Assembly: GCA_011634665.1 (NCBI GenBank)
Contig: WAEK01000006.1
Location: 825,001 to 889,000 of the forward strand
Length of the DNA: 64,000 nucleotides
Origin: Mortierella sp. BCC40632
Taxonomy: Eukaryota; Mortierellomycota; Mortierellomycetes; Mortierellales; Mortierellaceae
Direction of reading: 5' to 3'
Below are positions 1-39,165 of this stretch, in pieces. The position numbers were made by a program, and so were the translations under genes. How positions within the stretch are numbered: the stretch's first letter is position 1; every line of letters starts with the position of its first letter. The notes beneath the pieces were generated by a model that was not told where the DNA came from, made no database searches, and saw nothing but the letters and a program-made list of their open reading frames with translations.

Positions 1-3000
1 CCAGGTTGTCGTTGAGAAGAAGACTGATGTCGAGATCGAGGTTGTTGAAGTTGAGGAGAAGACCAAGGTCGAGAAGGAGGTCGAAGTCACCGAGAAGGTC
101 ATCACCAAGGAGACTGGCGTTGTCTGCAAGCCTGCCGTCACCAAGGAGACTTCATGGTTCCGCCGCGTTGCCTCTGGCGCTGGAGCTATTGCCGCCGGTG
201 CCTTGACTCAGGTCGATGGCGTCTGGAAGCGCACTGTCGAGGTCATCAACACTCGCAAGGCCAAGGTTGACCATGTCTGCCCCATCGCCAAGAAGTCCTT
301 CGTGTACTACGATGAGGAGGTCTATGACAGTGTCCTTGTTGAGAAGTCGACTGGCGTCACATATGTCACTCAGCTCATCTACAACAGCGAGACCCGTGCG
401 TACTACGTGTATGTCCGCTGGGGTGAGAGCGACTACAAGCTCGATGGACCTCATGAGACCATTGAGTCCGCCAAGTCCGCCTTCCAGGTTACCTACCAGG
501 AGCGCTTCGGTGTCACTTGGGAGCAGCGTGAGACCACCGTCAGCGGTAAGTTTGCTTTGAGTTATTTAGTATCCATTCAAAATTGTTCTATGTTGAACCT
601 GTTGAAATTAATCCGCTATATTTTGATCCGCCTCTATTAGAACAATGGTCATATGAAGTCCAGACCTACGAGACCTACGAAGAGATCGAGGAGATCGAGG
701 AGATCGTCGAGGAGACCGAGATCAAGGAGATCCTTGCTCGCGAGGAGATCGTTGTCGTTGATGGCAAGATCACCAAGACCGAGACTTCCACCATTGAGAC
801 CACCGAGGAGGTTGCCGTTGAGCACGTCACCGAGGAGGTTGTCGTCAAGGAGGACGTCCAGGTTGTCGTTGAGAAGAAGACTGATGTCGAGATCGAGGTT
901 GTTGAAGTTGAGGAGAAGACCAAGGTCGAGAAGGAGGTCGAAGTCACCGAGAAGGTCATCACCAAGGAGACTGGCGTTGTCTGCAAGCCTGCCGTCACCA
1001 AGGAGACTTCATGGTTCCGCCGCGTTGCCTCTGGTGCTGGAGCTATTGCCGCCGGTGCCTTGACTCAGGTCGATGGCGTCTGGAAGCGCACTGTCGAGGT
1101 CATCAACACTCGCAAGGCCAAGGTTGACCATGTCTGCCCCATCGCCAAGAAGTCCTTCGTGTACTACGATGAGGAGGTCTATGACAGTGTCCTTGTTGAG
1201 AAGTCGACTGGCGTCACATATGTCACTCAGCTCATCTACAACAGCGAGACCCGTGCGTACTACGTGTATGTCCGCTGGGGTGAGAGCGACTACAAGCTCG
1301 ATGGACCTCACGAGACCATCGAATCTGCCAAGTCCGCCTTCCAGGTTACTTACCAGGAGCGCTTCGGTGTTACTTGGGAGCAGCGCGAGACCACCGTCAG
1401 CGGTAAATATTTGAAAAAACCATTATGATTAGTTGGATTCGTGTCATCTGGGTTTATCGCACCAATTTACTAATTTATGATTCAATTTACACATCAATTA
1501 ATAGAACAATGGACCTACGAGGTTCAGACCTACGAGACCTACGAAGAGCTCGAGGAGATTGAGGAGATCGTCGAGGAGACTGAGGTCAAGACCATCCTTG
1601 CTCGTGAGCAGGAGGTTGTTGTTGGAGGCAAGACCATTGAAACCACCACAGCCACCATTGAGACCAAGGAGGAGGTCGCAGTCGAGGAGATCACCAAGGA
1701 GACTAAGATCGTTGTTGATGAGGAGACCAAGGTCGAGGTTGAGAAGGTCGAGATCACCAAGGAGACCGGCGTTGTTGCCCAGCCTGCTGTCTCCAAGGGA
1801 TCTTCTTGGTTCCGTCGTGCCATCACTGGCACCGGTGCTGCTGTCATTGGAGGTGTCGCCGTCGTTGCCGTTGCTGGTGCTGCCGTTGTTCACGGAGCTG
1901 GTCACGTCGCCTCCGGTGCTGGCCATGTTGCCTCTGGCGCCCTTGAGAAGGTTGACGGAGTCTGGAAGCGCACTGTCCAGGTCCTCACCACTCGCAAGGC
2001 CAAGGTCGACCACGTCTGCCCCATTGCCAAGAAGTCCTTCGTGTACTACGATGAGGAAGTGTACGATGCCACCCTTGTTGAGAAGACCACTGGTGTGACC
2101 TATGTTACCCAGCTTCTCTACAACAGCGAGACCCGTGTGTACTACGTGTATGTCCGCTGGGGTGAGAGCGAGTACGTCCTTGATGGACCTCACGAGACCA
2201 TCGAGTCCGCCAAGTCTGCCTTCCAGGTTACCTACCAGGAGCGATTCGGTGTCACTTGGGAGAAGCGTGAGACCACTGTCAGCGGTAAGTTTTCGATATT
2301 TCTCATTTTTCCTTTCAAATTTTCCTATAATTGTGTTAGTTGATTCTAATTTTCTTCTATTTTGCTTTGCCATTATTAGAACGCTGGTCGTACGAAGTCA
2401 AGACCTACGAGGAGATCGAGGAGATCGAGGAGGTTGAGGAGATCGTCGAGGAATCCCAGGTCGAGATCATCCTTGCTCAGGAGAAGGAGATCCTCATCAG
2501 AGACCAGACCACCAAGACTGAGACCGAGACCACTACCATCGAGACCACCGAGGAGGTTGTCGTCAAGGAGGACGTCGAGGTTGTCGTCGAGAAGAAGACT
2601 GAAGTCGAGAAGAAGGCTGAGGTCGAGGTCATCGTCGAGAAGAAGACTGATGTCGAGATCGAGGTCGTTGAAGTTGAAGAGAAGGCCAAGGTCGAGATTG
2701 AAGTTGAGGAGGTCGTTGTTGAGAAGAAGGCCGAGATCGAGAAGAAGGAGGTCGAGGTCATCGTCGAGAAGAAGACTGATGTTGAGATCGAGGTTGTTGA
2801 AGTTGAGGAGAAGACCGAGGTCGAGATTGAGGTCGAGAAGAAGGAGACAGTCATCACCAAGGAGACCGACATTGTCTGCAAGCCTGTCGTCTCCAAGGAG
2901 ACCTCATGGTTCCGTCGTGTTGCCTCCGGTGCTGGAGCTATTGCCGCCGGTGCTTTGACTCAGGTCGATGGCGTCTGGAAGCGCACTGTCGAGGTCATCA

Positions 3001-6000
3001 ACACTCGCAAGGCCAAGGTCGACCATGTCTGCCCCATTGCCAAGAAGTCCTTCGTGTACTACGATGAGGAGGTCTATGACAGTGTCCTTGTTGAGAAGTC
3101 GACTGGCGTCACGTATGTCACTCAGCTCATCTACAACAGCGAGACCCGTGCGTACTACGTGTATGTCCGCTGGGGCGAGAGCGACTACAAGCTCGATGGA
3201 CCTCATGAGACCATCGAGGCTGCCAAGTCTGCTTTCCAGGTCACCTACCAGGAGCGTTTCGGTGTCACTTGGGAGAAGCGTGAGACCACTGTCAGCGGTA
3301 AGTTTACGAAGAGTTATTTATCGTTCATTCAATGTTGTTCATTATTGAATCTGTAGAAACTAATCCACCTAATTTTGGTCCGCCTCTATTAGAACAATGG
3401 TCATATGAAGTCCAGACCTACGAGACCTACGAAGAGACCGAGGAGATCGAAGAGATCATCGAGGAATCTCAGGTCGAGATCATCCGTGCTCGCGAGCAGG
3501 AGATCATCATCAAGGACCAGACCACCAAGACTGAGACCGAGACGACCACCATTGAGACCACCGAGGAGGTTGTCGTCAAGGAGGATGTCGAGGTTGTCGT
3601 CGAGAAGAAGACTGATGTCGAGATCCAAATCGAGAAGGAAGTCGAGGTCGAGAAGGTTGAGAAGATCGAGGTCGAGAAGAAGACTGAGGTCCAGATCGAG
3701 AAGAAGGAGATCGAAGTTGAGAAGACCGAGATTGAGGTCGAGGTCGAGAAGAAGACTGAGATCCAGATCGAGAAGAAGGAAGTCGAGGTCGAGGTCCAGG
3801 TCGAGAAGGTCGAGAAGACTGAGGTTGAGATCGAAGTCGAGAAGAAGGAGATCGAGGTCACCGAGAAGGTCATCACCAAGGAGACCGGCGTCGTTGCCCA
3901 GCCTGCTGTCTCCAAGGGCTCTTCTTGGTTCCGCCGTGTTGTCTCTGGCGCTGGTGCCGTCGTTGTCGGTAGTGCCGCCGTCGTCGCTGGTGCTGGTGCT
4001 GCCGTCGTCCACGGAGCTGGCCATGTTGCCTCCGGTGCTGGCCACGTTGCCTCTGGCGCCCTCGAGCAGGTTGACGGAGTCTGGAAGCGCACTGTCCAGG
4101 TCCTCACCACTCGCAAGGCCAAGGTCGATCATGTCTGCCCCATCGCCAAGAAGTCCTTCGTGTACTACGATGAGGAAGTGTACGATGCCACCCTTGTTGA
4201 GAAGACCACTGGCGTGACCTATGTCACCCAGCTTCTCTACAACAGCGAGACCCGTGTGTACTACGTGTACGTCCGCTGGGGTGAGAGCGAGTACGTCCTT
4301 GATGGACCTCACGAGACCATCGAGTCCGCCAAGTCTGCCTTCCAGGTTACCTACCAGGAGCGATTCGGTGTCACTTGGGAGAAGCGTGAGACCACTGTCA
4401 ACGGTAAGTATCCGATGATGTTATTTTCCCCTTAGTTTGTTCAATGATAGGCCATTTGATATTAATTCATTCTGTAATTTGCTCCGCACCTTTTAGAGCG
4501 CTGGTCGTACGAAGTCAAGACCTACGAGGAGATTGAGGAGATCGAGGAGGTTGAAGAGATCGTCGAAGAATCCCAGGTCGAGATCATTCTTGCTCAGGAG
4601 AAGGAGATCCAACTCAAGGACAAGACCATCCATATCGAGACCTCTACCATCGAGACCTCCGAGGAGGTTGCTGTTGAGCAGATCGTCAAGGAGGAAGTCG
4701 TCGTCAAGGAGGAGATCGCGGTTATTGAGAAGAAGGCCGAGGTCGAGATCGAGGTCGTTGAAGTTGAGAAGAAGACCGAGGTCGAGATCGAAGTCGAGAA
4801 GAAGGAGATCGATGTCACCGAGAAGGTCATCACCAAGGAGACTGGCATTGTTGCCCAACCCGCCGTTTCCAAGGGATCTTCGTGGTTCCGCCGTGTTGTC
4901 TCTGGCGCTGGTGCCGTCGTTGTCGGAGGTGCCGCCGTCGTCGCTGGTGCTGGTGCTGCCGTCGTCCACGGAGCTGGCCACGTCGCCTCCGGTGCTGGCC
5001 ACGTTGCCTCTGGCGCCCTCGAGCAGGTTGACGGAGTCTGGAAGCGCACTGTCCAGGTCCTCACCACTCGCAAGGCCAAGGTCGATCATGTCTGCCCCAT
5101 TGCCAAGAAGTCCTTCGTGTACTACGATGAGGAAGTGTACGATGCCACCCTTGTTGAGAAGACCACTGGCGTGACCTATGTCACCCAGCTTCTCTACAAC
5201 AGCGAGACCCGTGTGTACTACGTGTACGTCCGCTGGGGTGAGAGCGAGTACGTCCTTGATGGACCTCACGAGACCATCGAGTCCGCCAAGTCCGCCTTCC
5301 AGGACCATCGGAGTCCGTTCCTCTTCCCAATTTGTTCATTGATTATTCTTTTGCCTTCCAGGTTACCTACCAGGAGCGATTCGGAGACCTCCGAGTCACT
5401 TGGGAGAAGAATCGAGTTTCAGACCACTGTCAGCGGTAAGTTTTCCAATGGTATTCTGTTCCGCCTCTTCCTAATTTGTTCATTGATTATTTTTTGATAT
5501 TAATTCATTCAACACTTCGATCCGCCACTACTTGTTGAGAACGCTGGTCCTTTTGAAGTCAAGACCCACGAGGAGATCCGCCAAGAGATCGAGGAGGTTG
5601 AAGAGTCAAGACCTACGAGGAGATTGAAGTCTTTGAGGAAGAATCCAGAGCGTCGAGAAGACCGAGGTCATGAGGAGACCAAGGTCTTGAGAAGGTTGCT
5701 CAAGGAGAGGCCCAAGCGTTCTGGCGCTGGGGAGAGTCCAACTGTCCAAGTCCTCACCAGGACAAGGATGGAGACTTTCACAACAGCGAGACCGTATGTC
5801 TGGGTGAGAGGAGTACGTCCCTGATGGACCTCACGAGACCATCGAGCCAAGATCGCCTTCCAGGTTACCTACCAGGAGCGAGTGGGAGAGGTGAGTCACT
5901 GTCAACGGGTATCCAATGGTGTTCTTTTCCCCTTAGTTTGTTTAATAATCTGTCATTTGATATTAATTTATTCTGAGCATCTTTTCTGGTCGTACGAAGT

Positions 6001-9000
6001 CCGAGGAGAAGAGTCGAGATCATCCTTGCTCAGGAGAAGGAGATCCAGCTCGACCATCGAGTTCCGAGGAAGAAGAACATCGTCAAGGAGGAGATCGAAG
6101 TTATCCAGAGATTGAGATCGAGAAGAAGGACGAGATCCGAGGAAGACCGAGGAAATTGTCGAGAAGGTTGAGAAGATCGAGATCGAGAAGAAGGAAGTCG
6201 ACATTGAGGTCCAGGTCGAGAAGAAGACTGAGGTGAGAAGAAGGAGCGAGATCCCAGCCTGCTGTCTCAAATCTTCCGAGGTTCGAAGTCGTCGAAAAGA
6301 AGGCCGAATTCGAGATCCAGATTGAGAAGGTCGAGAAGCAGACTGAGGTCGACATCCAGGTTGAGAAGATCGAGGTTGTTGTCGGAGAAGAAGAGAGTTC
6401 GGAAACCAAATCGAGAAGGAGGTTGAGGAGAAGGCCATCGAGAAGAAGGAAGTCGAGGTCGAGGTCCAGGTTGAGATGATCGAGAAGATCGAGGTCGAGA
6501 AGAAGGAGGTCGAGATCGAAGTCATCGAGAAGAAGGCCGACGGAGATGTCGCCTCCGGAGTTCGAGATCCAGATCGAGAATGTTCATCCAGGTCGAGAAG
6601 AGGAGGTTGAAGAAGAAGTCCGAGGTCCAGGTCGAAGGTCGCTGAGAAGTCCAGGTCGAGAAGAAGGCCGAGGTCGAGAAGGAGGTTGAGGAGAAGACCT
6701 CGAGGTCGAGGTTCAGGTCGAGAAGGTTGAGAAGGTTGAGAAGATCGAGGTCGAGAAGAAGACCGAGGTTGTTCCCTCAGCGACCACTGGTGCTGGTGCC
6801 GTTGTCCATCGCTCTGGCGCTCTCGAAGGTTGACGGAGTCTGGGAAGCGCACCGTCCAGGTTCTCACTACACGTCTGCCCCATCGCCAAAGAAGTCCTTT
6901 CGTGTACTACGATGAGGAAGTGTACGATGCCACCCTTGTTGAGAAGTCACTGGCGTGACCTATGTTTGAAGTACAACAGCGAGACCCGTGTGTACTACGG
7001 TACGTCCGCTGGGAGAGCGAGACGTCCTTGATGGACCTCACGAGACCATCGAGTCCGCCAAGTCGCTGCCTTCCAGGTTACCTACCAGGAGCGATTCGGT
7101 GTTACTTGGGAGAAGCGTGAGACCACTGTCAGCGGTAAGTTTCGATTCTATTTTTGTTTCTTTTGAATATGTTTATTATTGTGTCCGCCGATCCTAATTT
7201 ATTAATTGGTCCGCCACTTAGAACGCTGGTCGTCGAAGTCAAGACCTACGAGGAGATCCAGGAGGTGGGAGGAGAGGTCGAAGTTTTGAAGAGTTGGAGG
7301 TTGATTATTAGAACGAAGAGGGAGGTTCTCATCCAGGACAAGACCGTCACCACCGAAGTCTCCACCATCGAGACCAAGGAGGAGATCTCGGTTGAGGTTG
7401 AGAAGAAGGAGGTCGAGATCGAGGTCGTCGAGAAGAAGGCCGAGTTCGAGATCCAGATCGAGAAGGAGGTCGAAAAGAAGACTGAGATCCAGGTCGAGAA
7501 GAAGGAAGTCGAGGTCGAGGTCCAGGTCGAGAAGGTTGAGACGATCGAGGTCGAGAAGAAGGAGGTCGAAATCGAGGTCGAGAAGAAGGAGATCCATTGA
7601 GAAGGTCGAGAAGAAGACCGACATCCAGGTCGAGAAGATCGAGATCCAGATCGAGAAGAAGGAAGTCGAGGTCGAGGTCCAGGTCGAGAAGATCCGAGGT
7701 CCGAGAGTTTTGAGAAGGAGAGAGGTCGAGATCGAGGTCATTGAGAAGAAGGAGACCGAGTTCGAAATCCAAATCGAGAAGGAGGTTGAGGAGAAGACTG
7801 AGATCCAGATCGAGAAGAAGGAAGTCGAGGTCGAGGTCCAGGTCGAGAAGGTTGAGAAGGTTGAGAAGATCGAGGTCGAGAAGAAGGAAGTCGAGATCGA
7901 GATCCAGGTCGAGAAGAAGACCGAGGTTGTCTCTCAGCCTACCGTCTCCAAGGGATCGTCGTGGTTCCGCCGTGCCATCGCTGGTGCAGGTGCCGTCGTT
8001 GTTGGAGGTGCCGCCGTCGTTGCTGGTGCTGGTGCTGCCGTTGTCCACGGAGCTGGCCATGTTGCCTCCGGTGCTGGTCACGTTGCCTCTGGCGCTCTCG
8101 AGCAGGTTGACGGAGTCTGGAAACGCACTGTCCAGGTCCTCACCACTCGCAAGGCCAAGGTCGATCACGTCTGTCCCATCGCCAAGAAGTCCTTCGTGTA
8201 CTACGACGAGGATGTGTACGATGCCACCCTTGTTGAGAAGACCACTGGCGTGACCTATGTCACCCAGCTTCTCTACAACAGCGAGACCCGTGTGTACTAC
8301 GTGTACGTCCGCTGGGGTGAGAGCGAGTACGTCCTTGATGGACCTCACGAGACCATCGAGTCCGCCAAGTCTGCCTTCCAGGTCACCTACCAGGAGCGAT
8401 TCGGTGTTACTTGGGAGAAGCGTGAGACCACTGTCAGCGGTAAGTTTCCAATGTTATTATTTTTACATTCAATTTTTTTTTTATTATTGTGTCGATAGAT
8501 TCTAATTTTTCTAATTTACTCCGCCACTACTAGAACGCTGGTCGTACGAAGTCAAGACCTACGAGGAGATCCAGGAGGTTGAGGAGATCGTCGAAGTCTT
8601 TGAAGAGTCTGAGGTCGAGGCCATCCGTGCTCGCGAAGAGGAGATTCTCATCCAGGACAAGACCGTCACCACCGAAGTCTCCACCATCGAGACCAAGGAG
8701 GAGATCTCGGTTGAGGTTGAGAAGAAGGAGGTCGAGATCGAGGTCGTCGAGAAGAAGGCCGAGTTCGAGATCCAGATCGAAAAGGTCGAGAAACAGACTG
8801 AGGTCGACATCCAGGTCGAGAAGATCGAGGTTGAAGAGAAGACTGAGATCCAGATCGAGAAGAAGGAAGTCGAGGTCGAGGTCCAGGTCGAGAAGATCGA
8901 GAAGATCGAGGTCGAGAAGAAGGAGGTCGAGATCGAAGTCATCGAGAAGAAGGCCGAGTTTGAGATCCAGATCGAGAAGGAGGTCGAAGTCGAGGTCATC

Positions 9001-12000
9001 GAGAAGAAGGAGACCGAGTTCGAAATCCAAATCGAGAAGGAGGTCGAGGTCGAAGTCGTCGAAAAGAAGGCCGAGTTCGAGATCCAGATCGAGAAGGTCG
9101 AGAAGCAGACTGAGGTCGACATCCAGGTCGAGAAGATCGAGGTTGAAGAGAAGACTGAGATCCAGATCGAGAAGAAGGAAGTCGAGGTCGAGGTCCAGGT
9201 CGAGAAGGTCGAGAAGAAGGAGGTCGAGATCGAGGTCATCGAGAAGAAGGCCGAGTTCGAAATCCAAATCGAGAAGGAGGTTGAGGAGAAGACTGAGATC
9301 CAGATCGAGAAGAAGGAAGTCGAGGTCGAGGTTCAGGTCGAGAAGGTTGAGAAGGTTGAGAAGATCGAGGTCGAGAAGAAGACCGAGGTTGTCTCTCAGC
9401 CTACCGTCTCCAAGGGATCGTCGTGGTTCCGCCGTGCCATCGCTGGTGCAGGTGCCGTCGTTGTTGGAGGTGCCGCCGTCGTTGCTGGTGCTGGTGCTGC
9501 CGTTGTCCACGGAGCTGGCCATGTTGCCTCCGGTGCTGGTCACGTTGCCTCTGGCGCTCTCGAGCAGGTTGACGGAGTCTGGAAGCGCACTGTCCAGGTT
9601 CTCACCACTCGCAAGGCCAAGGTCGACCACGTCTGCCCCATCGCCAAGAAGTCCTTCGTGTACTACGATGAGGATGTGTACGATGCCACCCTTGTTGAGA
9701 AGACCACTGGCGTGACCTATGTCACCCAGCTTCTCTACAACAGCGAGACCCGTGTGTACTACGTGTACGTCCGCTGGGGTGAGAGCGAGTACGTCCTTGA
9801 TGGACCTCACGAGACCATCGAGTCCGCCAAGTCTGCCTTCCAGGTCACCTACCAGGAGCGCTTCGGTGTTACTTGGGAGAAGCGTGAGACCACTGTCAGC
9901 GGTAAGTTTCCAATTCTATTTTTTGTTTCTTTGAATATGTTTATTATTGTGTCCGCCGATCCTAATTATTTCTCTAATTTACTCCGCCACTACTAGAACG
10001 CTGGTCGTACGAAGTCAAGACCTACGAGGAGATCCAGGAGGTTGAGGAGATCGTCGAAGTCTTTGAAGAGTCTGAGGTTGAGGCCATCCGTGCTCGCGAA
10101 GAGGAGGTTCTCATCCAGGACAAGACCGTCACCACCGAAGTCTCCACCATCGAGACCAAGGAGGAGATCTCGGTTGAGGTTGAGAAGAAGGAGGTCGAGA
10201 TCGAGGTCATCGAGAAGAAGGAAGTTGAGATCGAGGTCGTCGAGAAGAAGACTGAGATCCAGGTCGAGAAGAAAGAAGTCGAGATCGAGGTCCAGGTCGA
10301 GAAGAAGGAGACCGAGTTCGAGATCCAGATCGAGAAGGAAGTCGAAGTCCAGGTCGAGAAGATCGAAGTCGAGGAGAAGACTGAGGTTGAAATTGAGGTC
10401 CAGAAGAAGGAAGTCGAGGTCCAGGTCGAGAAGGTCGAGAAGATTGAGATCGAGAAGACTGAGGTCCAGATCGAGGTTGAGAAGAAGGAGGTTGAGGTCA
10501 CCGAGAAGGTCATCACCAAGGAGACTGGCGTCGTTGCCCAGCCTGCTGTCTCCAAGGGATCTTCGTGGTTCCGCCGTGCCATCAGTGGTGCTGGTGCCGT
10601 TGTTGTTGGTAGTGCCGCCGTCGTCGCTGGTGCTGGTGCTGCCGTCGTCCACGGAGCTGGTCACGTCGCCTCCGGTGCTGGCCATGCTGCCTCTGGCGCT
10701 CTTGAGAAGGTTGATGGAGTCTGGAAACGCACTGTCCAGGTCCTCACCACTCGCAAGGCCAAGGTCGACCACGTCTGCCCCATCGCCAAGAAGTCCTTCG
10801 TGTACTACGATGAGGAAGTGTACGATGCCACCCTTGTTGAGAAGACCACTGGCGTGACCTATGTCACCCAGCTTCTCTACAACAGCGAGACCCGTGTGTA
10901 CTACGTGTACGTCCGCTGGGGTGAGAGCGAGTACGTCCTTGATGGACCTCACGAGACCATCGAGTCCGCCAAGTCCGCTTTCCAGGTCACCTACCAGGAG
11001 CGATTCGGTGTTACTTGGGAGAAGCGTGAGACCACTGTCAGCGGTAAGTTTCCAAAACTAGTTTTTTTCTCTCAAATTTGTTTATTATTGTGTCGATAGA
11101 TTCTAATTTTTCTAATTTACTCCGCCACTACTAGAACGCTGGTCATACGAAGTCAAGACCTACGAGGAAATCGAAGAGATCGAGGAGGTTGAAGAGATCG
11201 TCGAAGAATCCCAGGTCGAGATCATTCTTGCTCAGGAGAAGGAGATCCAACTCAAGGACAAGACCATCCATATCGAGACTTCCACCATCGAGACCTCCGA
11301 GGAGGTTGCTGTTGAGCAGATCGTCAAGGAGGAAGTCATCGTCAAGGAGGAGGTCGTCGTCGAGAAGAAGGCCGAGGTCGAGATCGAGGTCGTCGAAGTT
11401 GAGAAGAAGACTGAGGTCGAGGTCGAGAAGAAGGAGATCGAGGTCACCGAGAAGGTCATCACCAAGGAGACTGGCGTTGTTACCCAGCCAGCTGTCTCCA
11501 AGGGATCGTCGTGGTTCCGCCGTGCCATCACTGGTGCAGGTGCCGTCGTTGTTGGAGGTGCCGCCGTCGTTGCTGGTGCTGGTGCTGCCGTTGTCCACGG
11601 AGCTGGTCACGTCGCCTCCGGTGCTGGCCATGCTGCCTCTGGCGCTCTTGAGAAGGTTGATGGAGTCTGGAAACGCACTGTCCAGGTCCTCACCACTCGC
11701 AAGGCCAAGGTCGATCACGTCTGCCCCATCGCCAAGAAGTCCTTCGTGTACTACGATGAGGAAGTGTACGATGCCACCCTTGTTGAGAAGACCACTGGCG
11801 TGACCTATGTCACCCAGCTTCTCTACAACAGCGAGACCCGTGTGTACTACGTGTACGTCCGCTGGGGTGAGAGCGAGTACGTCCTTGATGGACCTCACGA
11901 GACCATCGAGTCCGCCAAGTCTGCCTTCCAGGTTACCTACCAGGAGCGATTCGGTGTTACTTGGGAGAAGCGTGAGACCACTGTCAGCGGTAAGTTTCCA

Positions 12001-15000
12001 GTGATATTTTTTTTGTTTCTTTGAATATGTTTATTATTGTGTCCGCCGATCCTAATTATTTTTCTATTTTACTCCGCCACTACTAGAACGCTGGTCGTAC
12101 GAAGTCAAGACCTACGAGGAGATCCAGGAGGTTGAGGAGATCGTCGAGGTCGTTGAGGAGTCTGAGGTCGAGATCATCCGTGCTCGCGAACAGGAAGTCA
12201 TCATTGGCGACAAGACCATCAAGACCGAGACTTCTACCATCGAGACCAAGGAGGAGGTTGCTGTTGAGCACATTGTCCAGGAGGAAGTCGTCGTCAAGGA
12301 GGAGGTTGAGGTCGTCGTCGAGAAGAAGACCGAAGTCGAGATTGAGGTCGAGAAGAAGGAGATCGAGGTCACCGAGAAGGTCATCACCAAGGAGACCGGC
12401 GTTGTTGCTCAGCCTGCTGTCTCCAAGGGATCTTCGTGGTTCCGCCGTGCCATCACTGGCGCTGGTGCCGTTGTTGTTGGAGGTGCCGCCGTCGTCACCG
12501 GTGCTGGTGCTGCCGTTGTTCACGGAGCTGGCCACGTCGCCTCCGGTGCTGGCCATGTTGCCTCTGGCGCTCTTGAGAAGGTTGACGGAGTCTGGAAGCG
12601 TACTGTCCAGGTCCTCACCACTCGCAAGGCCAAGGTCGATCACGTCTGTCCCATTGCCAAGAAGTCCTTCGTGTACTACGACGAGGAAGTGTACGATGCC
12701 ACCCTTGTTGAGAAGACCACTGGCGTGACCTATGTCACCCAGCTTCTCTACAACAGCGAGACCCGTGTGTACTACGTGTATGTCCGCTGGGGTGAGAGCG
12801 AGTACGTCCTTGATGGACCTCACGAGACCATCGAGTCCGCCAAGTCTGCTTTCCAGGTTACCTACCAAGAGCGATTCGGAGTCACTTGGGAGAAGCGTGA
12901 GACCACTGTCAGCGGTAAGTTTTCGATATTACTCATTTTTCCTTTCCGATTATCCTATAATTGTGTTAGTTGATTCTAATTTTCTTCTATTTTGCTTTGC
13001 CATTATTAGAACGCTGGTCGTACGAAGTCAAGACCTACGAGGAGATTGAGGAGATCGAGGAGGTTGAGGAGATCGTCGAGGAATCCCAGGTCGAAATCAT
13101 CCTTGCTCGTGAGAAGGAGATCCAACTCGAGGGTCAGACCATCCAGACTGAGACCACCACCATCGAGACCAAGGAGGAGATCGCCGTCGAGGAGATCACC
13201 AAGAAGACTGAGGTCGTTGTTGATGAGGAGACCAAGGTCGAGGTTGAGAAGGTTGTGATCACCAAGGAGACTGGCGTTGTTGCCCAACCCGCCGTTTCAA
13301 AGGGATCTTCATGGTTCCGCCGTGCCATCACTGGCGCTGGTGCCGTTGTTGTTGGAGGTGCTGCCGTCGTCGCTGGTGCTGGTGCTGCCGTTGTTCACGG
13401 AGCTGGCCATGTTGCCTCCGGTGCTGGCCATGCTGCCTCTGGCGCCCTTGAGAAGGTTGATGGAGTCTGGAAACGCACTGTCCAGGTCCTCACCACTCGC
13501 AAGGCCAAGGTCGACCACGTCTGCCCCATTGCCAAGAAGTCCTTCGTGTACTACGACGAGGATGTGTACGATGCCACCCTTGTTGAGAAGACCACTGGCG
13601 TGACCTATGTCACCCAGCTTCTCTACAACAGCGAGACCCGTGTGTACTACGTGTATGTCCGCTGGGGTGAGAGCGAGTACGTCCTTGATGGACCTCACGA
13701 GACCATCGAGTCCGCCAAGTCCGCTTTCCAGGTCACCTACCAGGAGCGATTCGGTGTCACTTGGGAGAAGCGTGAGACCACTGTCAGCGGTAAGTTTTCC
13801 AATGGTATTCTGTTCCTCTTCCTAATTTGTTCGTTGATTATTCTTTGGTATTAATTCATTCAACAATTTGATCCACCACTACTAGAACGCTGGTCATACG
13901 AAGTCAAGACCTACGAAGAAATCGAGGAGATCGAGGAGGTTGAAGAGATCGTCGAGGAATCCCAGGTCGAGATCATCCTTGCTCAGGAGAAGGAGATCCA
14001 GCTCGAGGAGAAGACTATCCATGTCGAGACTTCTACCATCGAGACTTCCGAGGAGGTTGCTGTTGAGCGCATTACCAAGGAGGAAGTCGTCGTCAAGGAA
14101 GAGATCGAGGTTATTGAGAAGAAGGCCGAGGTCGAGATCCAGATCGAGAAGAAGGAGGTCGAGGTTGAAGTCCAAGTCGAGAAGATCGAGATTGAGGAGA
14201 AGAAGGAGGTCGAGGTTGAAGTTCAGATCGAGAAGAAGGAGGTCCAGGTCGAGGTCCAGGTCGAGAAGAAGGAGATCGAGAAGAAGACCGAGGTCGAGGT
14301 CGAGGTCGAGATCCAAGTTGAGAAGAAGGAAGTCGAGGCTGTCATCACCAAGGAGACTGGCGTTGTTGCCCAACCCGCCGTTTCCAAGGGCTCTTCTTGG
14401 TTCCGCCGCGTCGTCTCTGGCGCTGGTGCCGTTGTTGTTGGAGGTGCCGCCGTCGTCGCTGGTGCTGGTGCTGCCGTTGTTCACGGAGCTGGCCACGTCG
14501 CCTCCGGTGCTGGTCACGTTGCCTCTGGCGCCCTCGAGCAGGTTGACGGAGTCTGGAAGCGCACTGTCCAGGTCCTCACCACTCGCAAGGCCAAGGTCGA
14601 TCATGTCTGCCCCATTGCCAAGAAGTCCTTCGTGTACTACGATGAGGAAGTGTACGATGCCACCCTTGTTGAGAAGACCACTGGCGTGACCTATGTCACC
14701 CAGCTTCTCTACAACAGCGAGACCCGTGTGTACTACGTGTACGTCCGCTGGGGTGAGAGCGAGTACGTCCTTGATGGACCTCACGAGACCATCGAGTCCG
14801 CCAAGTCCGCTTTCCAGGTCACCTACCAGGAGCGATTCGGAGTCGCTTGGGAGAAGCGTGAGACCACTGTCAGCGGTAAGTTTTTTTTTTTTTTTTTATA
14901 TCTATATTGCTCTGATGTTGACATTAATTCATTCTACAATTCCCTCCGCCATTACTAGAACACTGGTCGTACGAAGTCAAGACCTACGAGGAGATCCAGG

Positions 15001-18000
15001 AGGTTGAGGAGATCGTCGAGGTCGTTGAGGAGTCTGAGGTCGAGATCATCCGTGCTCGCGAACAGGAAGTCATCATTGGCGACAAGACCATCAAGACCGA
15101 GACTTCTACCATCGAGACCAAGGAGGAGGTTGCTGTTGAGCATATTGTCCAGGAGGAAGTCGTCGTCGAGAAGAAGGAGATCGAGATCGAGGTCGTCGAA
15201 GTTGAGAAGAAGACCGAGATTGAGGTCGAGAAGAAGGAGATCGAGGTCACCGAGAAGGTCATCACCAAGGAGACTGGCGTTGTTGCCCAACCCGCCGTTT
15301 CAAAGGGATCTTCGTGGTTCCGCCGTGCCATCACTGGCGCTGGTGCCGTTGTTGTTGGAGGTGCCGCCGTCGTCGCTGGTGCTGGTGCTGCCGTTGTTCA
15401 CGGAGCTGGCCACGTCGCCTCCGGTGCTGGTCACGTTGCCTCTGGCGCCCTCGAGCAGGTTGACGGAGTCTGGAAGCGCACTGTCCAGGTCCTCACCACT
15501 CGCAAGGCCAAGGTCGATCACGTCTGCCCCATCGCCAAGAAGTCCTTCGTGTACTACGATGAGGAAGTGTACGATGCCACCCTTGTTGAGAAGACCACTG
15601 GCGTGACCTATGTCACCCAGCTTCTCTACAACAGCGAGACCCGTGTGTACTACGTGTATGTCCGCTGGGGTGAGAGCGAGTACGTCCTTGATGGACCTCA
15701 CGAGACCATCGAGTCCGCCAAGTCTGCTTTCCAGGTTACCTACCAGGAGCGATTCGGTGTCACTTGGGAGAAGCGTGAGACCACTGTCAGCGGTAAGTTT
15801 CCAAAACTAGTTTTTTTCTTTTGAGTTCTTCTTATAGTTGTGTTAGTTGATTCTAATTTGCTCTTTTATTTGCTTTGCCACTACTAGAACGCTGGTCATA
15901 TGAAGTCAAGACCTACGAGGAGATCCAGGAGGTTGAGGAGATCGTCGAGGTCGTTGAGGAGTCTGAGGTCGAGATCATCCGTGCTCGCGAACAGGAAGTC
16001 ATCATTGGCGACAAGACCATCAAGACCGAGACTTCTACCATCGAGACCAAGGAGGAGGTTGCTGTTGAGCACATTGTCCAGGAGGAAGTCGTCGTCAAGG
16101 AGGAGGTTGAGGTCGTCGTCGAGAAGAAGACCGAAGTCGAGATTGAGGTCGAGAAGAAGGAGATCGAGGTCACCGAGAAGGTCATCACCAAGGAGACTGG
16201 CGTTGTTGCCCAACCCGCCGTTTCCAAGGGATCTTCGTGGTTCCGCCGTGCCATCACTGGCGCTGGTGCCGTTGTTGTTGGAGGTGCTGCCGTCGTCGCT
16301 GGTGCTGGTGCTGCCGTCGTCCACGGAGCTGGCCACGTCGCCTCCGGTGCTGGCCATGCTGCCTCTGGCGCCCTTGAGAAGGTTGATGGAGTCTGGAAAC
16401 GCACTGTCCAGGTCCTCACCACTCGCAAGGCCAAGGTCGATCACGTCTGCCCCATTGCCAAGAAGTCCTTCGTGTACTACGACGAAGAAGTGTACGATGC
16501 CACCCTTGTTGAGAAGTCGACTGGTGTGACCTATGTCACCCAGCTTCTCTACAACAGCGAGACCCGTGTGTACTACGTGTATGTCCGCTGGGGTGAGAGC
16601 GAGTACGTCCTTGATGGACCTCACGAGACCATCGAGTCCGCCAAGTCTGCTTTCCAGGTTACCTACCAGGAGCGATTCGGTGTCACTTGGGAGAAGCGTG
16701 AGACCACTGTCAGCGGTAAGTTTCCAAAACTAGTTTTTTTCTTTTGAGTTCTTCTTATAGTTGTGTTAGTTGATTCTAATTTGCTCTTTTATTTGCTTTG
16801 CCACTACTAGAACGCTGGTCATATGAAGTCAAGACCTACGAAGAGATCGAGGAGGTTGAGGAGATCGTCGAGGTCGTTGAGGAGTCTGAGGTTGAGGTCA
16901 TCCGCGCTCGCGAGATGGAAATCGCACTTGAGGACAAGACCATCAAGACCGAGACCGAGATCAAGACTATCACCACTCGTCAGGAAGAGGTCGCAGTTGA
17001 GCAGGTCAGCAAGGAGACTGTTATCACGGAAGGTGAGGAGATTGTCAAGGAAGTCACCACTGTCACGGAGACAGGTGTTGTCAGCGAGCCAGCTGTTTCT
17101 AGCGAGACCTCTTGGTTCCGCCGCCTTGCCGCTGGAGCTGGAGCTGCTGCTGCTGGAGCCTTGATTCAGGTCGATGGTGTCGTGAAGCGTGCAGTCCAGG
17201 TGGTCACTACCCGCAAGGCTCATGTTGACAAGGTCTGCCCCATTGCCAAGACCTCGTTTGTCTACTATGACGAGGATGTGTACGATGCTATCTTGACAGA
17301 CCGTCGCACGGGTGTCACCTACATCACCCAGCTCTTGTTTGATTCCAAGACCAAGGCCTACTTTGTCTACATCCGTTGGGGTGAGTCTGAGTACAAGTTG
17401 GACGGACCCCACGATTCGATCGACACTGCCAAGGCTGCCTTCCAGGTTTCGTACTATGAGCAGTTCGGCATTGTTTGGACTGAGCGCAGAAAGACTGTCA
17501 GTGGTAAGTCCCCCCCCCCTCTTCCTTCGCCTATTGATTCTGAATGGGTTCACATTAATGTCAGAGGCGGTGAGATGAATAGGATTGCTAACCTTGTTAT
17601 TTTTTTTGTATTTGATTTCAATAGATGAGTGGATGTTCGAGGTCTCGACCTACGAATCCTTTGAGGAGATTGAGGAGATCGAAGAGATCGTTGAGGACTA
17701 TGAGACGTCGGAGGTTGTTGCCCGTGAACAAAAGGTCATTGTTGGTGAGCAGGTTGTCTCGACCCACCAGTCGATCACCTCGACCCACGATGACTCGGTG
17801 ACCCGATCTGTCAGCGAGAAGACTGTCTTCCAGGAGGGAAGCTCCTCTTCGTCCTCGGAGATTTCGCATGCCCAGTATGAAGCCCTGGCCCGAGAGGAAG
17901 CTACTCGCCGTGCTGCCTCTGCCAGCTCGTCTTCCACAACCACTCACGAAGAGAAGAAGGCCACCTTTGACTGTAAGTATTTCTGATCAAGCCTATTTGA

Positions 18001-18489
18001 TTTTTCTCTTATCTGTATCTCTCTTTCTCTCTTGAATCATGTCTTCTAACATAAACTGCCTTTCCTTTCTCTTCTTCAAAATCAATAGTGTCGACTCTTC
18101 CCCAGCTTGGTGATGTCGGAATCAACGTCGAGACTGGTGCAAGGGATGGTGTCATTGATCTTACCTCTGGAACCGCCACTGTCCTTCGTGAGCTCCCCCC
18201 GCACCTCCGCCCCCGTGCCTGGGTCTCGCTCCACGTTGGAGGCTGGCGCAACTCTCCCCGTGAACTTTCAGGATTCCTTCGTGTCGATGACCAGTCCGGA
18301 CAGCGTCTGATGGAAGAGGCTCGTGAAGCCGCCCAAGGCAAGGCCGAGGATGCGGTTGCGATTGACAATCTCCGTCTTCCCGAGATTGTTGCTCTCTTTG
18401 CCCAGAGATTGTATGGTCACTTTGAGGAGGAACTTCCTGAGGAGTTGAGCTATGAGCGTTTGAGCCGTCTTGGACCCCACCGCACTTAA
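1..18489 (+). CDS. Giant tandem-repeat protein: coiled-coil / Gly-Ala segment / WGR-like domain array (5' end outside window)
   Basis: One multi-exon gene, open at the left edge. Exons read from splice sites: 1-545, 641-1402, 1505-2284, 2380-3297, 3393-4403, 4497-5435, remnants about 5540-5907 and 5986-7134, 7222-8439, 8534-9901, 9997-11043, 11135-11989, 12087-12914, 13010-13789, 13886-14875, 14959-15792, 15888-16715, 16811-17503, 17625-17972, 18089-18489 (stop). Every intact internal exon is a multiple of three and starts and ends in phase 1, so splicing rebuilds one frame. Each repeat begins E-R/Q-W-S-Y-E-V, then has an acidic stretch, an E/K/V-rich coiled coil, S-W-F-R-R, a Gly/Ala/Val segment, V-D-G-V-W-K-R, a block with one Cys (D-H-V-C-P-I-A-K-K), and a WGR-like domain (V-Y-D-A-x-L, T-Q-L-L-Y, V-R-W-G-E, then S-A-K-S-A-F-Q and F-G-V-T-W). 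Spacing and hydrophobic pattern match WGR domains of PARP1-3, where this domain binds DNA ends. No PARP catalytic domain is seen. Function is unknown; a scaffold role is inference. Visible intact coding is over 4,600 residues. Confidence 0.8.
5303..7725 (+). other. Indel-ridden block inside the giant gene (assembly fault or decayed repeat units)
   Basis: In the exon starting at 4497, coding sequence is interrupted after 5303 by a stretch resembling part of a neighbouring intron (about 5318-5350), then resumes in another frame. The exon still reaches its donor at 5435 without a stop, but the end of its WGR-like domain is scrambled. From 5540 to 5907 a unit is reduced to less than half its normal length by many deletions, and it has a stop within six codons. 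The next unit (about 5986-7134) and the first part of the one after it (7222-7725) carry many one- to several-base gains and losses, for example a missing base in the start module at about 7233. Retained segments otherwise match the intact units closely. A run of indels with few substitutions is more like uncorrected long-read consensus or a collapsed repeat than old decay, but this cannot be settled from one sequence. Confidence 0.65.
8534..9901 (+). CDS. Longest repeat exon of the giant gene (456 codons)
   Basis: This exon holds the longest coiled-coil insert of the array. About 230-250 residues are almost only Glu, Lys, Val and Ile, with Gln, Asp or Thr in places. They are arranged in sub-repeats built on V-E-K-K-E-V-E-I-E-V and K-A-E-F-E-I-Q-I-E-K, and at least two larger blocks recur within the exon (8750-8950 resembles 9060-9240). 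The insert lies between the acidic start module and the S-W-F-R-R motif. The donor is at 9902 and the acceptor before 8534. Internal duplication at this finer scale, nested in the exon duplication, explains the length differences between units. The E/K composition also leaves the complementary strand open over 400 codons, which is a composition shadow and not a gene. Confidence 0.8.
16811..17503 (+). CDS. Divergent last WGR-like exon of the giant gene
   Basis: This is the most diverged repeat. It keeps the frame and layout but differs at many positions: start module E-R-W-S-Y-E-V-K-T-Y-E-E-I, short Gly/Ala segment L-A-A-G-A-G-A-A-A-A-G-A-L, C-P-I-A-K-T-S-F-V-Y-Y-D-E, and V-Y-D-A-I-L-T-D-R-R-T-G with I-R-W-G-E-S-E-Y and F-G-I-V-W. 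It has almost no E/K/V coiled coil. At 231 codons it is the shortest intact internal exon. Its distance from the homogenised copies suggests it sits outside the recently amplified part, perhaps close to the ancestral unit; that is inference. Its upstream intron is identical to the one before the preceding exon, so the boundary between homogenised and unique sequence lies inside the exon. Donor G-T-A-A-G-T at 17504. Confidence 0.8.
17625..18489 (+). CDS. Unique 3' terminal exons of the giant gene
   Basis: Exon 17625-17972 begins with the usual module (D-E-W-M-F-E-V-S-T-Y-E-S-F-E-E-I) but continues into a Ser/Thr/Glu-rich, probably disordered stretch, with no Gly/Ala segment and no WGR-like domain. 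A GTAAGT donor follows at 17973 and the acceptor A-T-A-G is at 18085-18088. The last exon (18089-18489) encodes about 133 residues unlike the repeats. It contains D-G-V-I-D-L-T-S-G-T-A, an R-P-R-A-W-V-S-L-H-V-G-G-W segment, and a C-terminal helix-like part, L-P-E-I-V-A-L-F-A-Q-R-L. TAA is at 18487-18489. I do not recognise this tail. It may be a distinct small domain, which a profile search could name. Confidence 0.7.
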
Positions 18490-24041: not shown

Positions 24042-25988
24042 CTATGGTGGATTAGAAAGAAAAGCACTGCCAAGAGAAATAAGTCCCGCGGGGATCGTTG
24101 GAGTGGAACACATCGATCGACTGCCGCTCGAGAGGACAAAATCTGAAAACTTGCTAAAGCCTGCTCGTGCAAAGTCCAGGGCCAGTTCCTCATGAAGCCA
24201 CGACGAAGACCACGACCAGGTGCTATCGAGCTGTCGTCTACTCGTTGGAGACACACAAGCCGGAGAAACCGGTGTTGAGCATGGGCTGGGCGGAGGCGCG
24301 GTCAAGAGGAGTGATGATGATGTGGAGGAGGAGGAGGAGGAGGAGGAGGAGGAAAAGTAAGAGTCATCACTGTGGACAGGATCAAGGTCCAAAGTAGAAT
24401 GGTGGTCGGTGGATTGGTCATAACAAATAGAATGGTGGAAAGAATCATTATCGGAGTCATCAAAAGGTGTGGTGTGGGTGTTGTCGGCACTGCGACGAAT
24501 GTTGTTGTTGTTGTTCTTGCTGTTGCTGTCACCGTTACTGTCACTGCTATCGTCATTGCTCATGTCCAAGACAATGACAGGGGTGGTCACGGGCATGGTC
24601 ATCGTCAGAGCGTCCGTCGATCCCAACTCATCAAACTCGACAGGAAGTGTAAAATCCATCTCCTCTTCTTCAATCATATCCGACCAGGACTTTCCAGACT
24701 GGCGTGAAGAGGCCAAGGACCAGCCAGAGGAACAAGACTCTGTCCTAGACTTGCCAGTAGAGGGCAACCGGGACATGGTCTCATCGTCCATCAAGAAGAG
24801 TGGCTCCAAAAGTTCCTCACTCCTAGAGAGGACCACCTCGTTGTCATGACCTTCTTGTTGAGAGAAACTTTGGCTGAGTGAGCGAGACGTCGAGTCATCT
24901 GCACTGGATTGAGAAGAATAGGCAGATGAAGAGTCATCGACATAGAAATACGAGCCAGTTCGTTCCTGATCACAGTCTTCCATAAACGTATACGACTTGG
25001 GATCGACTTGGTCACAGACCACACGGTCGATCCGTTGAACGAGTTCCAGAGCCTCGTAACAGTCAGCACGCTCGTTGGGGTCCACACAGAGCACTCGCTG
25101 CAAAAAATAGAGTGCACTGTTCGATAGCTCGGGGAACATACCCTTCAGCACATTGGGATCCTGAGCATAGGCTGCAAAGGTCTCATCCATATCCGCACGA
25201 GAGAGCTTCCATGGGTTACGACCGAATCGGAGGTTCAGAAAGATGATTCCGAGAGCCCAGACGTCCGACTTTGCAGGAAGGTAAGGCCGGCGTCCTGCAG
25301 AAGAGGTGAGAATCGGCTGTTGTTCAGGCGCCATGTAGAACGAGCTCCCGCAGCCAAAGTCGGACGAAACACGTTCCCTGGTAGCAAGACCAAAATCTGC
25401 GAGCTTGAGCGATCCGTCGCCTGCGACTAGGATGTTTTCTGGCTTGAGATCGCGGTGAAAGACTTGATGAGAGTGCGAGTGGGCAAGGGCTGAGAGGATC
25501 TGGGTCATGGCATCGAGGACTGAACTATCCGAGTGCACGTTCAAATGGCGACCTAGGATGCGGGTGGGCGCAAGGTCGACACCCGAGTCACCAGAGGCAG
25601 AGTGTTGGGAAGTGATGGCATCGTAAAGGTCTCCACCGGAGCAGTACTCCATGACGAGAAACAGCGAGTCGGCCGTCTCGATGACCGAGGCCATGTCAAC
25701 GATATGCGGGTGGTGACTACCGCGAGCGGCTGAGAGAGAAAGGTGGATGTCGATTTCTTGGCGCTGGAGCTGCAGTTGGGTGGAACTGAGGCCCTTCTTG
25801 GAGAGGCATTTGACGGCTTTGAACTCTGGGGTGCCAGACAAGGACCGGGCGAGGTAGATGCAGCCATAAGTACCATAGCCAATCACATCAAGGATCTGGT
25901 AGGAGACGCGTCTGTGACTGTCCTGTAGGACATCGCCGACACGGTCCCGCGCTCCTGTAACGGAGTCGACGGCGCAGAGCTGGCTCAT
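24042..25988 (-). CDS. Serine/threonine protein kinase, Ran1/Pat1-Sks1-Vhs1 family
   Basis: Single-exon 648-residue protein with ATG at 25988. The kinase domain covers about residues 28-325. Visible elements: glycine loop G-Y-G-T-Y-G-C, the lysine in F-K-A-V-K-C, H-R-D-L-K-P-E-N catalytic loop, D-F-G-L-A-T, activation segment G-C-G-S-S-F-Y-M-A-P-E-Q, S-D-V-W-A-L-G-I-I and N-L-R-F-G-R-N-P-W-K. The G-C-G-S-S-F-Y and G-R-N-P-W-K signatures are typical of the fungal Ran1/Sks1/Vhs1 group, which acts in nutrient- and differentiation-related signalling; the substrate here is unknown. All catalytic residues are present, so it should be active. The C-terminal half is low-complexity and disordered: Ser-rich, an Asn run, an eleven-Ser run, and P-V-I-V-L-D-M-S followed by acidic and Ser residues, which resembles a SUMO-interacting motif. 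The stop is 71 bp from the poly-A run. Confidence 0.93.
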   Translation of the reverse strand: MSQLCAVDSVTGARDRVGDVLQDSHRRVSYQILDVIGYGTYGCIYLARSLSGTPEFKAVKCLSKKGLSSTQLQLQRQEIDIHLSLSAARGSHHPHIVDMASVIETADSLFLVMEYCSGGDLYDAITSQHSASGDSGVDLAPTRILGRHLNVHSDSSVLDAMTQILSALAHSHSHQVFHRDLKPENILVAGDGSLKLADFGLATRERVSSDFGCGSSFYMAPEQQPILTSSAGRRPYLPAKSDVWALGIIFLNLRFGRNPWKLSRADMDETFAAYAQDPNVLKGMFPELSNSALYFLQRVLCVDPNERADCYEALELVQRIDRVVCDQVDPKSYTFMEDCDQERTGSYFYVDDSSSAYSSQSSADDSTSRSLSQSFSQQEGHDNEVVLSRSEELLEPLFLMDDETMSRLPSTGKSRTESCSSGWSLASSRQSGKSWSDMIEEEEMDFTLPVEFDELGSTDALTMTMPVTTPVIVLDMSNDDSSDSNGDSNSKNNNNNIRRSADNTHTTPFDDSDNDSFHHSICYDQSTDHHSTLDLDPVHSDDSYFSSSSSSSSSSTSSSLLLTAPPPSPCSTPVSPACVSPTSRRQLDSTWSWSSSWLHEELALDFARAGFSKFSDFVLSSGSRSMCSTPTIPAGLISLGSAFLSNPP

Positions 25989-27971
25989 TACTGGTACGAC
26001 GGACAGCTCACGCTTGAGCGAGAGAGAGAGAGAGAGTAAGAGAGATCCTTGGTGAGAGAGTATGTATGTATAGAGGAGGATTGTGCCGATGACGACAACG
26101 GGCTGTCCACGAGAGCACAGAGAGAGATTGGGATATCACGGAGAGGAAAAAAAGAAAGACAAAGAACAAACAAGCAAAAAAAAAAAAAAAAAAAAAAGAA
26201 AAAAATGGGATATAGGAGTCCAAAAAAGCAGACAAAGAATAGCGCTCAACCAAGAACAAGCAGAGTGTTCGATTGGGAGCAAGGATATTCTCCACCTGAG
26301 CAGACAGGAGTCCTAAAGAGGCGAGACGCTTTTGTACAGGGTGTGGGTAGGAAAGAGAGAAAGAGAGAGAGAGAGAAAGAGAGAGAAAAGAAAAAGAAAA
26401 AAAAAAAAGAAAGAAAAGAAAAAGACTGAGCCGCACGATCGTTCAAGGAGTATGCGCCTTCAGCCAGGAGGTTTTTTGGTAAAATATTTTTTTGGTGTGT
26501 GTCTTGTGGGGTGTAGTAGAAGGTTGGGTTAGGGAAGGATGCTGAGAAGGAGGCTATCTCTCACTCTCTGCTTCTTTTTTTTTTGTGTGTGTGCGTGTGT
26601 GTATGTCCTTTTTTTTCGGGTCGGGCGGGTAGGGTGTGAGGATGGGTGGGGACAGAACTGAATACAAGTGAGAACAAGGAACCAAATAGTACACGATTAT
26701 ATAGGAAGACGACACAGAAAAGAAAAGAAAAGAAAAAAAATAAAAACGGAACGAGCAAAGAAAAGAAAAAGAAAAGACAAAGGTTGGCAGGGGCTGGTGG
26801 AATGATATCAGGCAAAGAGTCGGTGTGTTGAAGAAAGAGAAAATGAAAGAGACCCTTGGAACAAAGACTGGGATTCAAAGGAAGCGGTGACGGTGCGGGA
26901 AGAACGGGAGCAGAGGCAGGGCGTCAGGGAGCTTGTTAGGTTGAGAGTGGTTGAATCCTTGGGTTGAAAATGGCGGTAGAAGTGGTGGTGGTGGTGAACA
27001 GGTGGGCAGTAGCAGGGGAGCCTTGCAGGAAAGCAGAGGAAGATGGGGAGGAGAGCGGCATAATATTACAGTGGAGACATCCGAGAGGAAGAAGAGGAAG
27101 AGGAGAAGGAGGAGGAGGAGGAGGAGGAGGAGGAGGAGGAGGAGGAGGAAGAGGAAGAGGAAGAAGCTGAACAGAGCCGAAAGATGATTTTAGAGGATGA
27201 GGTCAATTATGGTGGGCAAGAGGTGAGGTTGATTAGAGAGATGAACATACCAAAAAAAAGAAAATGGATGATTTGTTGTTCGAACGAACAAAGGAGATAG
27301 ATAACCCCCGAAGCAGGAAAAAAAGAGAGCGGGTTGGCAGAAGTGAAGTGAAGGAGAGAGAGATGAGAAAGAGAATGGAAAGAGAGGAAAGAGGGAAGAA
27401 AGGAACAAGACGTGCGGAAAAGAGAGGGTTAGAGAAATATAGAGAATGTGGAAAGAGAGAAAAGAGGAAGAGAACGATGACGATGAGAAAGATGGATGGA
27501 GAACGGGAAAAGAGGCAAAAAAGAAAAAAAAGAAAAAAAAAAGAAAAGGGAATGAATGAAATGGATGGAAGAAAAAGAAAAAAAGGGGGAGAAAGAAAGA
27601 GAAAAGAACTTTTTTTTTTTTTTTTTTTTGGGGAGAAGACAGAGAGAAACAGTACAGAGAGGACAGAGACTGGCTGACTGACAGAAAAAAAAGGGATGCA
27701 CAACTAGCTCTGGCCGAACAATATTATTACACAAGCAACCTGCACCATGGACCAGAGTCGGTGTTAGGCCGTCGTGGCGTGAGTTGGCTGTAGGTGCTGG
27801 CTAGATGGACTAGCAAGCTGGGTGCGTGAGCGTGTGAGTGAACGAGAGAGAGAGAGAGAGAGTGGAGTGAGAGGCAGGCGCTATATACAGCGCCTCGCTC
27901 AGTTCTCGGCCACGTATGAGGTGATGTATCAGATAATTCGAGCGGGGCAGTCGCTCCTTGGTTTTGATTCT

Positions 27972-38879: not shown

Positions 38880-39165
38880 GTTGATGATTGATTGCTTGTT
38901 AAAAGTGTTGAAAGTGGTGAAGAGATGGGAGCTGGGCAGATGGTTGTGAGAGAATGTGGAATGATGTGAAATTCAAGAAGACGAGCATGCCCTTTTAAAC
39001 CTTGCGAATGGCCATCTGGAAAAGTGAAAGTGCATCCCTTACAGAGTATGTCGCTGCTCCTTATTGGAGCTTAGTCGATCCGCATAAACTCGACGAATTG
39101 ATCATAGACTTTCCTATCACTGAACGCATCAAGTCTGTACAGTTGTAGGCATGGTGTCATCATAA

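Follow-up and report, generated by a model that had tools for sequence, protein, structure and literature searches.

The DNA analysed here (the window, 64,000 nucleotides, C6:825001-889000) lies on contig WAEK01000006.1 (C6) of Mortierella sp. BCC40632, whose genome comprises 49.9 Mb in 62 contigs. Positions 1-18489 of the window are the 3' part of a giant gene that we modelled at C6:814065-843489 (+), a span of about 29.4 kb. Read from sequence, this appears to be a single gene for a modular protein, in which eight ricin-type beta-trefoils are followed by at least 22 WGR domains with their linkers and Gly/Ala segments, and then by a small C-terminal segment. We give about even odds (a probability near 0.5) to the reading that its product is a giant intracellular multivalent tether or scaffold with a lectin head. 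An earlier note on the window had described one gene with about 18 WGR-like domains in tandem exons, each paired with a coiled coil and a Gly/Ala segment and with no catalytic domain visible, and had proposed a multivalent nucleic-acid- or ligand-binding fibre.

The splice model was placed by hand from the genomic sequence, and all exon joins are modelled. In it, the start ATG is at C6:814065, and the part of the gene before the window encodes the eight beta-trefoils and six further WGR domains. The tandem-exon array that the earlier note placed at 1-18489 is present, and its example exon at 12087-12914 is exact (preceded by AG and followed by GTAAGT), but the modelled start of the gene lies outside the window, 10,936 bases upstream. 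Exons 1-31 keep their phase without a stop for 4,243 residues, up to a scrambled stretch at 5304-7600. Beyond it an open part of 279 residues occupies about 7601-8438, and the eleven exons from 8534 supply 2,990 stop-free residues in phase, ending with TAA at 18489. The clean parts total about 7,500 residues, the protein thus being at least about that size, and the claim of one giant gene holds as far as the splice model shows. Of the repeat exons, the 19 that the model gives in full are all entered in phase 1 and have a length divisible by three, so that gain, loss or skipping of a copy would leave the frame unchanged. The array introns measure 83-102 bases (16 aligned), two neighbouring ones being fully alike. 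GC donors are modelled at exons 1 and 5, and the acceptor of exon 8 is ambiguous, the site keeping phase 1 (C6:816323) having been taken. The features of the gene in window coordinates are listed below; rows given without a basis come from the repeat search and the splice model.

1-545 (+): 3' part of exon 26 (C6:824784-825545), with linker, short Gly/Ala segment and WGR domain (splice model; WGR match at C6:825191-825544)
641-1402 (+): exon 27, WGR repeat, short Gly/Ala form
1505-2284 (+): exon 28, WGR repeat, long Gly/Ala form
2380-3297 (+): exon 29, WGR repeat, short form
3393-4403 (+): exon 30, WGR repeat, long form
4497-5303 (+): exon 31, WGR repeat (partial WGR match, 1-99 of 118); its frame diverges from the others after 5303
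5304-7600 (+): scrambled stretch, a mosaic of array pieces with at least one WGR remnant with stops (alignment to the array)
7601-8439 (+): clean 3' part of a repeat exon, WGR, long form (279 residues open)
8534-9901 (+): WGR repeat exon with the longest linker among those measured (295 residues)
9997-11043 (+): WGR repeat exon
11135-11989 (+): WGR repeat exon
12087-12914 (+): WGR repeat exon, the example of the earlier note
13010-13789 (+): WGR repeat exon
13886-14875 (+): WGR repeat exon
14959-15792 (+): WGR repeat exon
15888-16715 (+): WGR repeat exon
16811-17503 (+): last, divergent WGR repeat exon (68% identity to the query repeat; 17191-17502 modelled)
17625-17972 (+): penultimate exon, which carries on the last WGR at its start and then becomes an acidic and Ser-rich linker (no Pfam match)
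18089-18489 (+): last exon, a C-terminal segment of about 132 residues without known family, stop TAA (no Pfam match)

The repeats appear to be divergent but real WGR domains, as several comparisons of sequence and model bear out. A profile built from 13 window repeats gave eight matches in the PDB at E<=1, all of them to PARP2 or PARP3 and over the WGR (best E 5.7e-5), and the first upstream copy matches the PARP1 WGR at E 4.6e-5. The first copy also passes the PF05406 cut-off of 22 bits, both within its exon (24.0 bits) and alone (22.6 bits). An AlphaFold2 (AF2) model of the last repeat's domain, with a predicted local distance difference test score (pLDDT) of 63, has four strands, a helix and a short final strand. 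Foldseek ranks 1-24 with this model were all PARP1/2/3 chains containing a WGR, which agrees with the fold that the earlier note had proposed. The likeness to the WGR of PARP1/2/3 (PF05406) therefore extends over sequence, predicted fold, the conserved W-G and a match that spans the domain, whereas the giant gene differs from these proteins in that no PARP regulatory or catalytic domain was found, the R and the NNNK loop are lost and the repeats are acidic. PMC2964712 describes WGR domains not only in PARPs but also in a molybdate regulator of E. coli and in further proteins whose function is unknown; the PARP clades given there have a WGR beside regulatory and catalytic domains, unlike the row of at least 22 seen here. 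No catalytic domain scored above the Pfam cut-off in the 14 distinct gene segments scanned (not every exon), and over these segments the earlier statement that none is visible stands. The PARP regulatory and catalytic domains likewise had no Pfam match in the same 14 segments, and no toxin or enzyme domain was found beside the trefoils in the segments scanned. The C-terminal segment matched nothing in the genome except itself.

The copies were counted by a six-frame search of the organism's own genome with one repeat (window 12560-12913) as query, which returns best candidates only and gives a lower bound. At least 26 matches were obtained: 22 stop-free array copies on C6, 3 with stops, and 1 in a PARP gene on contig C11. 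Sixteen of the stop-free copies, one of them partial, are in the window and six lie upstream, so that the earlier count of about 18 was fair for the window and low for the gene. Three overlapping stop-containing matches lie at window 6817-7133. A search of the same genome with PF05406 listed the PARP gene alone. Beyond this genome, the pattern matches found in viral contigs (16 with the PARP WGR and 25 with the repeat alignment) were none of them confirmed; nor were any of 59 matches to the PARP WGR in prokaryote genome contigs, a set without eukaryotes that says little here. Pfam rows below cut-off for LbR_Ice_bind, HTH_57, Phage_G, DUF6470, MvaT_DBD, Surface-like_ins_dom, LAMTOR5, DUF6316, Imm59, LPD5, USP47_C, DUF6440 and DUF1510 were rejected.

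Constraint was assessed on the 94-codon WGR core of 18 of the 22 copies (153 pairs). All 18 cores are free of stops, and the ratio of non-synonymous to synonymous differences (pN/pS) is 0.193, or 0.132 without the divergent last copy, values that are approximate given the paralogous comparison and possible gene conversion. Consecutive copies are often close, with 3-8 synonymous and 0-2 non-synonymous differences in 11 of the 17 pairs, the last copy being further off. Between a short-form copy and a neighbouring long-form one, synonymous differences are numerous (synonymous divergence, dS, 0.44-0.57), so the array is not all recent. The pattern supports purifying selection on the WGR cores, and an array that is translated and would have been built from two older subtypes and by local duplication.

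When aligned to the array, the scrambled stretch, from 5304 to about 7600, breaks up into 11 pieces, and a total of 96 gap openings falls in coding as well as intron parts. It is probably a bad assembly or consensus over a long tandem array, a decayed repeat being possible; consensus error is the likelier, since constrained repeats flank the stretch on both sides. The copy number is provisional because of this stretch.

In PARP2, according to PMC8190142, the WGR binds a phosphorylated DNA end via Trp151, Lys130, Lys183 and Tyr201, and Arg153, Asn127 and Asn129 are likewise named as contact residues. These contacts were mapped onto 20 modelled repeats by way of the organism's PARP gene (L001, C11:82331-85570), which has the canonical W-G-R and NNNK loop, is by reading followed by PARP-like frames and served as yardstick. 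The 20 are the 22 copies less two, namely the partial one at 5.0 kb and that at 8.1-8.4 kb. W and G are kept in all 20 repeats and the R of W-G-R in none, the Arg153 position being occupied by Glu (19) or Ser (1); the NNNK loop (Asn127, Asn129, Lys130) is lost throughout. At the Lys183 position there is an Arg in 18 of the 20, and at the Tyr201 position a Tyr or Phe, also in 18, both positions being an ungapped count from the conserved Trp. Over matched stretches, the net charge of each of the 20 repeats is between -4 and -10, versus +4 for the organism's own PARP WGR. Judged by these positions, the repeats do not carry the residue set with which a WGR of PARP2 type would sense DNA breaks. The loss of the R does not exclude the fold family, since the WGR of PARP4 (vault PARP) lacks all three residues of W-G-R according to PMC10711553. 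That domain resembles the repeats as a WGR fold in which the motif and the continuous basic surface for DNA have been lost, and the same paper considers it unlikely that it engages nucleic acid in the manner of PARP1; it differs from them in being a single domain beside a BRCT and a catalytic domain.

The 17 linkers (1,855 residues) consist of E 32.9%, V 18.9%, K 12.8%, I 12.1% and T 10.1%; V and I together make up 31.0% and charged residues 48.4%, with G at 0.6% and A at 2.5%, and the net charge is -378. Their lengths are very unequal. The earlier note had seen a coiled coil in each repeat. A helix-like period (near 3.3) is confined to the first 30 or so linker residues, and the rest alternates in a strand-like manner, with a hydropathy autocorrelation of +0.12 at lag 2 (z 4.6), -0.20 at lag 1 and -0.35 at lag 3 (z -12.4), the z-scores being too high because the copies are related. 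Periodicity was taken from autocorrelation, as Fourier scans were probably blurred by phase slips in the long segments. The linkers would thus be mostly strand rather than coiled coil, and the coiled-coil label is doubtful.

A chain of many beta-rich domains with E/V/K-rich segments of unequal length is also the plan of titin-like springs, and by analogy the giant protein could be laid out in the same way. It differs from titin in that WGR replaces the Ig and fibronectin domains and in that the linker composition table has no proline; homology is not claimed. A second comparison is with the epiplastins and alveolins, whose membrane-skeleton ABD domains share with the linkers the enrichment in V and I, the preference for E and K, the scarcity of G, A and S and the strand-like alternation. 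PMC6212826 gives for the epiplastin ABD V+I 33+/-7%, charged residues 35+/-6%, E 16+/-5%, T 3+/-2%, and G and A near zero. Against this profile the linkers agree in V+I and fall outside in charge, E and T: they carry more charge, contain more E and T, and are broken up by the WGR and Gly/Ala modules.

A Gly/Ala segment does accompany the repeats, as the earlier note had it, but it is not of one kind: there is a short form of 15 residues and a long form of 44. In the 14 exons scanned, the Kyte-Doolittle mean over 19 residues was 1.97-2.12 in all nine long-form exons and at most 1.41 in the five short-form ones. The long form also has a periodicity of seven residues (hydropathy autocorrelation 0.44 at lag 7, among 11 related long copies), and an SWFRR motif stands just before the Gly/Ala segment in the 17 exons compared.

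Upstream of the window, exons 1-19 encode the eight ricin-type beta-trefoil modules. Module 5 passes both Pfam cut-offs (PF14200, E 2e-13, 51.3 bits; PF00652, E 2.9e-9, 37.6 bits). In the PDB it has 23 matches at E<=0.01, of which 6lci ("mdaA-1", E 3.5e-8) is the best and which include mistletoe lectin and ricin B chains. The seven other modules are linked to it by similarity, among them module 6 (48% identity, E 9.6e-23), module 7 (36%, E 1.2e-17) and module 8 (38%, E 1.1e-13). In the ricin-type fold an aspartate usually contacts the sugar, and by reading of the sequence it is present in 13 of the 15 lobes of modules 1-5. What sets the gene apart from the ricin-type lectins (PF14200, PF00652) is that eight such modules follow one another at the N-terminal end of a giant protein, and that the last three keep few of the aspartates. 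As a ligand-binding fibre, the product proposed by the earlier note would gain from these eight lectin-type domains. The N-terminus, MSGSPPSSARSSRV, has no secretory-type hydrophobic stretch by reading of the sequence. A PF14200 search of the genome gave seven matches, six of them outside the giant gene. A separate ricin-type beta-trefoil frame is found about 58 kb upstream of the start of the giant gene (L027:1294-1746 (-), near C6:755.7-756.2 kb; Ricin_B_lectin, E 1.8e-10).

As a tether or scaffold, the protein would be intracellular, no secretory signal having been seen at the proposed start, and its trefoil head would bind a glycan or another ligand. The WGR domains would be folded beads whose task is docking, to a partner or among themselves, and not the sensing of DNA breaks, and the linkers would be charged springs and spacers that make the tether elastic. 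The symmetric exons (phase 1-1) would keep the frame intact if the array became longer or shorter or its length were changed by splicing.

Several observations weigh against this picture. The PF05406 cut-off was not reached by the other copies scanned, namely four window repeat exons, L002:6760-7386, and four of the five proteins of a further scan. The AF2 model is of middling confidence, one Foldseek row only being under E 0.001, and an earlier model of 275 residues reached just pLDDT 31.8. Of the eight trefoils, one passes its Pfam cut-off: modules 1-4 score 17.2-25.1 bits against the 25.6 of PF14200, module 7 had no Pfam match, and modules 6 and 8 were outside the scan. The ricin-type aspartate is found by reading in just 2 of the 9 lobes of modules 6-8. 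The two halves of the gene, lying on either side of the scrambled stretch, are joined by inference. Finally, the hydropathy of the long Gly/Ala form would suffice for a membrane helix, a feature that has no explanation in a purely soluble tether.

This last feature would find its place in a scaffold stitched to a membrane, in which the long Gly/Ala segments insert into or lie on the bilayer and the WGR domains and linkers form a layer, as a many-point coat of a membrane or organelle. The hydropathy of all nine long-form exons, the seven-residue periodicity and the SWFRR motif speak for such a coat, as does the V+I content of the linkers, which is within the epiplastin range of PMC6212826. We nevertheless hold it to be unlikely: the 15-residue short form could not span a membrane and alternates with the long one in the same protein, a run of Gly and Ala can score as hydrophobic and yet be no membrane helix, and the charge (48%) and E content (33%) of the linkers are far above the epiplastin profile. 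Contact of the array with DNA or RNA at many points, the nucleic-acid half of the original proposal, is disfavoured, because Arg153, Asn127, Asn129 and Lys130 are lost from all 20 repeats and the repeats are acidic. The strongly negative linkers and the view taken of the motif-lost PARP4 WGR in PMC10711553 are further points against it. This reading is only weakened, since at three of the four phosphate contacts a plausible residue is still in place (the Trp in 20 of 20, with Arg at 183 and Tyr/Phe at 201 as stand-ins), and we regard it as distinctly unlikely.

The loss of the reading frame in 5304-7600 could also mean that there are two or more genes, a trefoil-WGR gene ending in or before that stretch and a second WGR-array gene after it. 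This seems quite unlikely to us, as the long-form subtype, the exon phase and similar introns are common to both sides, and a mosaic of 11 pieces and 96 gaps reaching into coding and intron parts is what a bad consensus over a tandem array is expected to give. One might also think of a surface or recognition protein that changes fast, such as a secreted adhesin or a self/non-self factor, with lectin modules and a repeat number that varies by strain; the lectin-type head, the often near-identical neighbouring repeats and the two fully alike introns would suit it. It is very improbable, however, when no secretion signal is seen by reading at the proposed start, when the WGR cores are constrained and not diversifying, and when the dS between short and long forms indicates that the array is not all recent.

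Beyond the lectin-headed tether or scaffold itself, one might speculate that the gene stands for a new class of cytoskeletal or membrane-skeleton giants in fungi. Such a protein would be a chain with a lectin head, whose twenty-odd structural beads, set on strand-forming acidic springs, arose by amplification of a fold for sensing DNA breaks that had shed most of its DNA contacts. We put this forward tentatively, as a possibility that is less probable than not by a wide measure and yet worth stating, for it would make the protein a fungal counterpart of titin or of the alveolate membrane skeletons, made from PARP-like parts. The architecture (eight trefoils with at least 22 motif-lost WGR domains and no PARP) was not found in listings of the open-licence literature. 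The component folds are known, and uncharacterised orthologues may already be deposited. Among the matches listed, papers that name the WGR domain present it mainly as a sensor of DNA breaks or as a regulator of PARPs. The gene would be an example of the fold in use as a docking or structural bead, and its motif-lost copies offer a natural series for studying what role the fold has apart from DNA. A fungal scaffold protein of the size of titin is a further possibility to which it points.

Other frames were noted around the giant gene. A neighbouring frame matches the solved AUR1 inositol phosphorylceramide synthase (E 7.5e-31), which, like the short introns of the array, agrees with a fungal origin of the DNA. 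At 24045-26135 (-) of the window there is a large open frame with a protein kinase domain (Pkinase, E 3.5e-49) and, by reading, a long Ser-rich tail. A small cupin protein (Cupin_1, E 8.3e-18) is encoded at 38085-38972 (-), and its start resembles a secretion signal by reading. Mobile elements are represented by a DDE_3 transposase-like frame at 55906-56643 (+) (E 3e-10), a transposon or a remnant of one, and by a retrotransposon reverse transcriptase with RNase H at 61574-62731 (-) (RT_RNaseH, E 6.7e-32).

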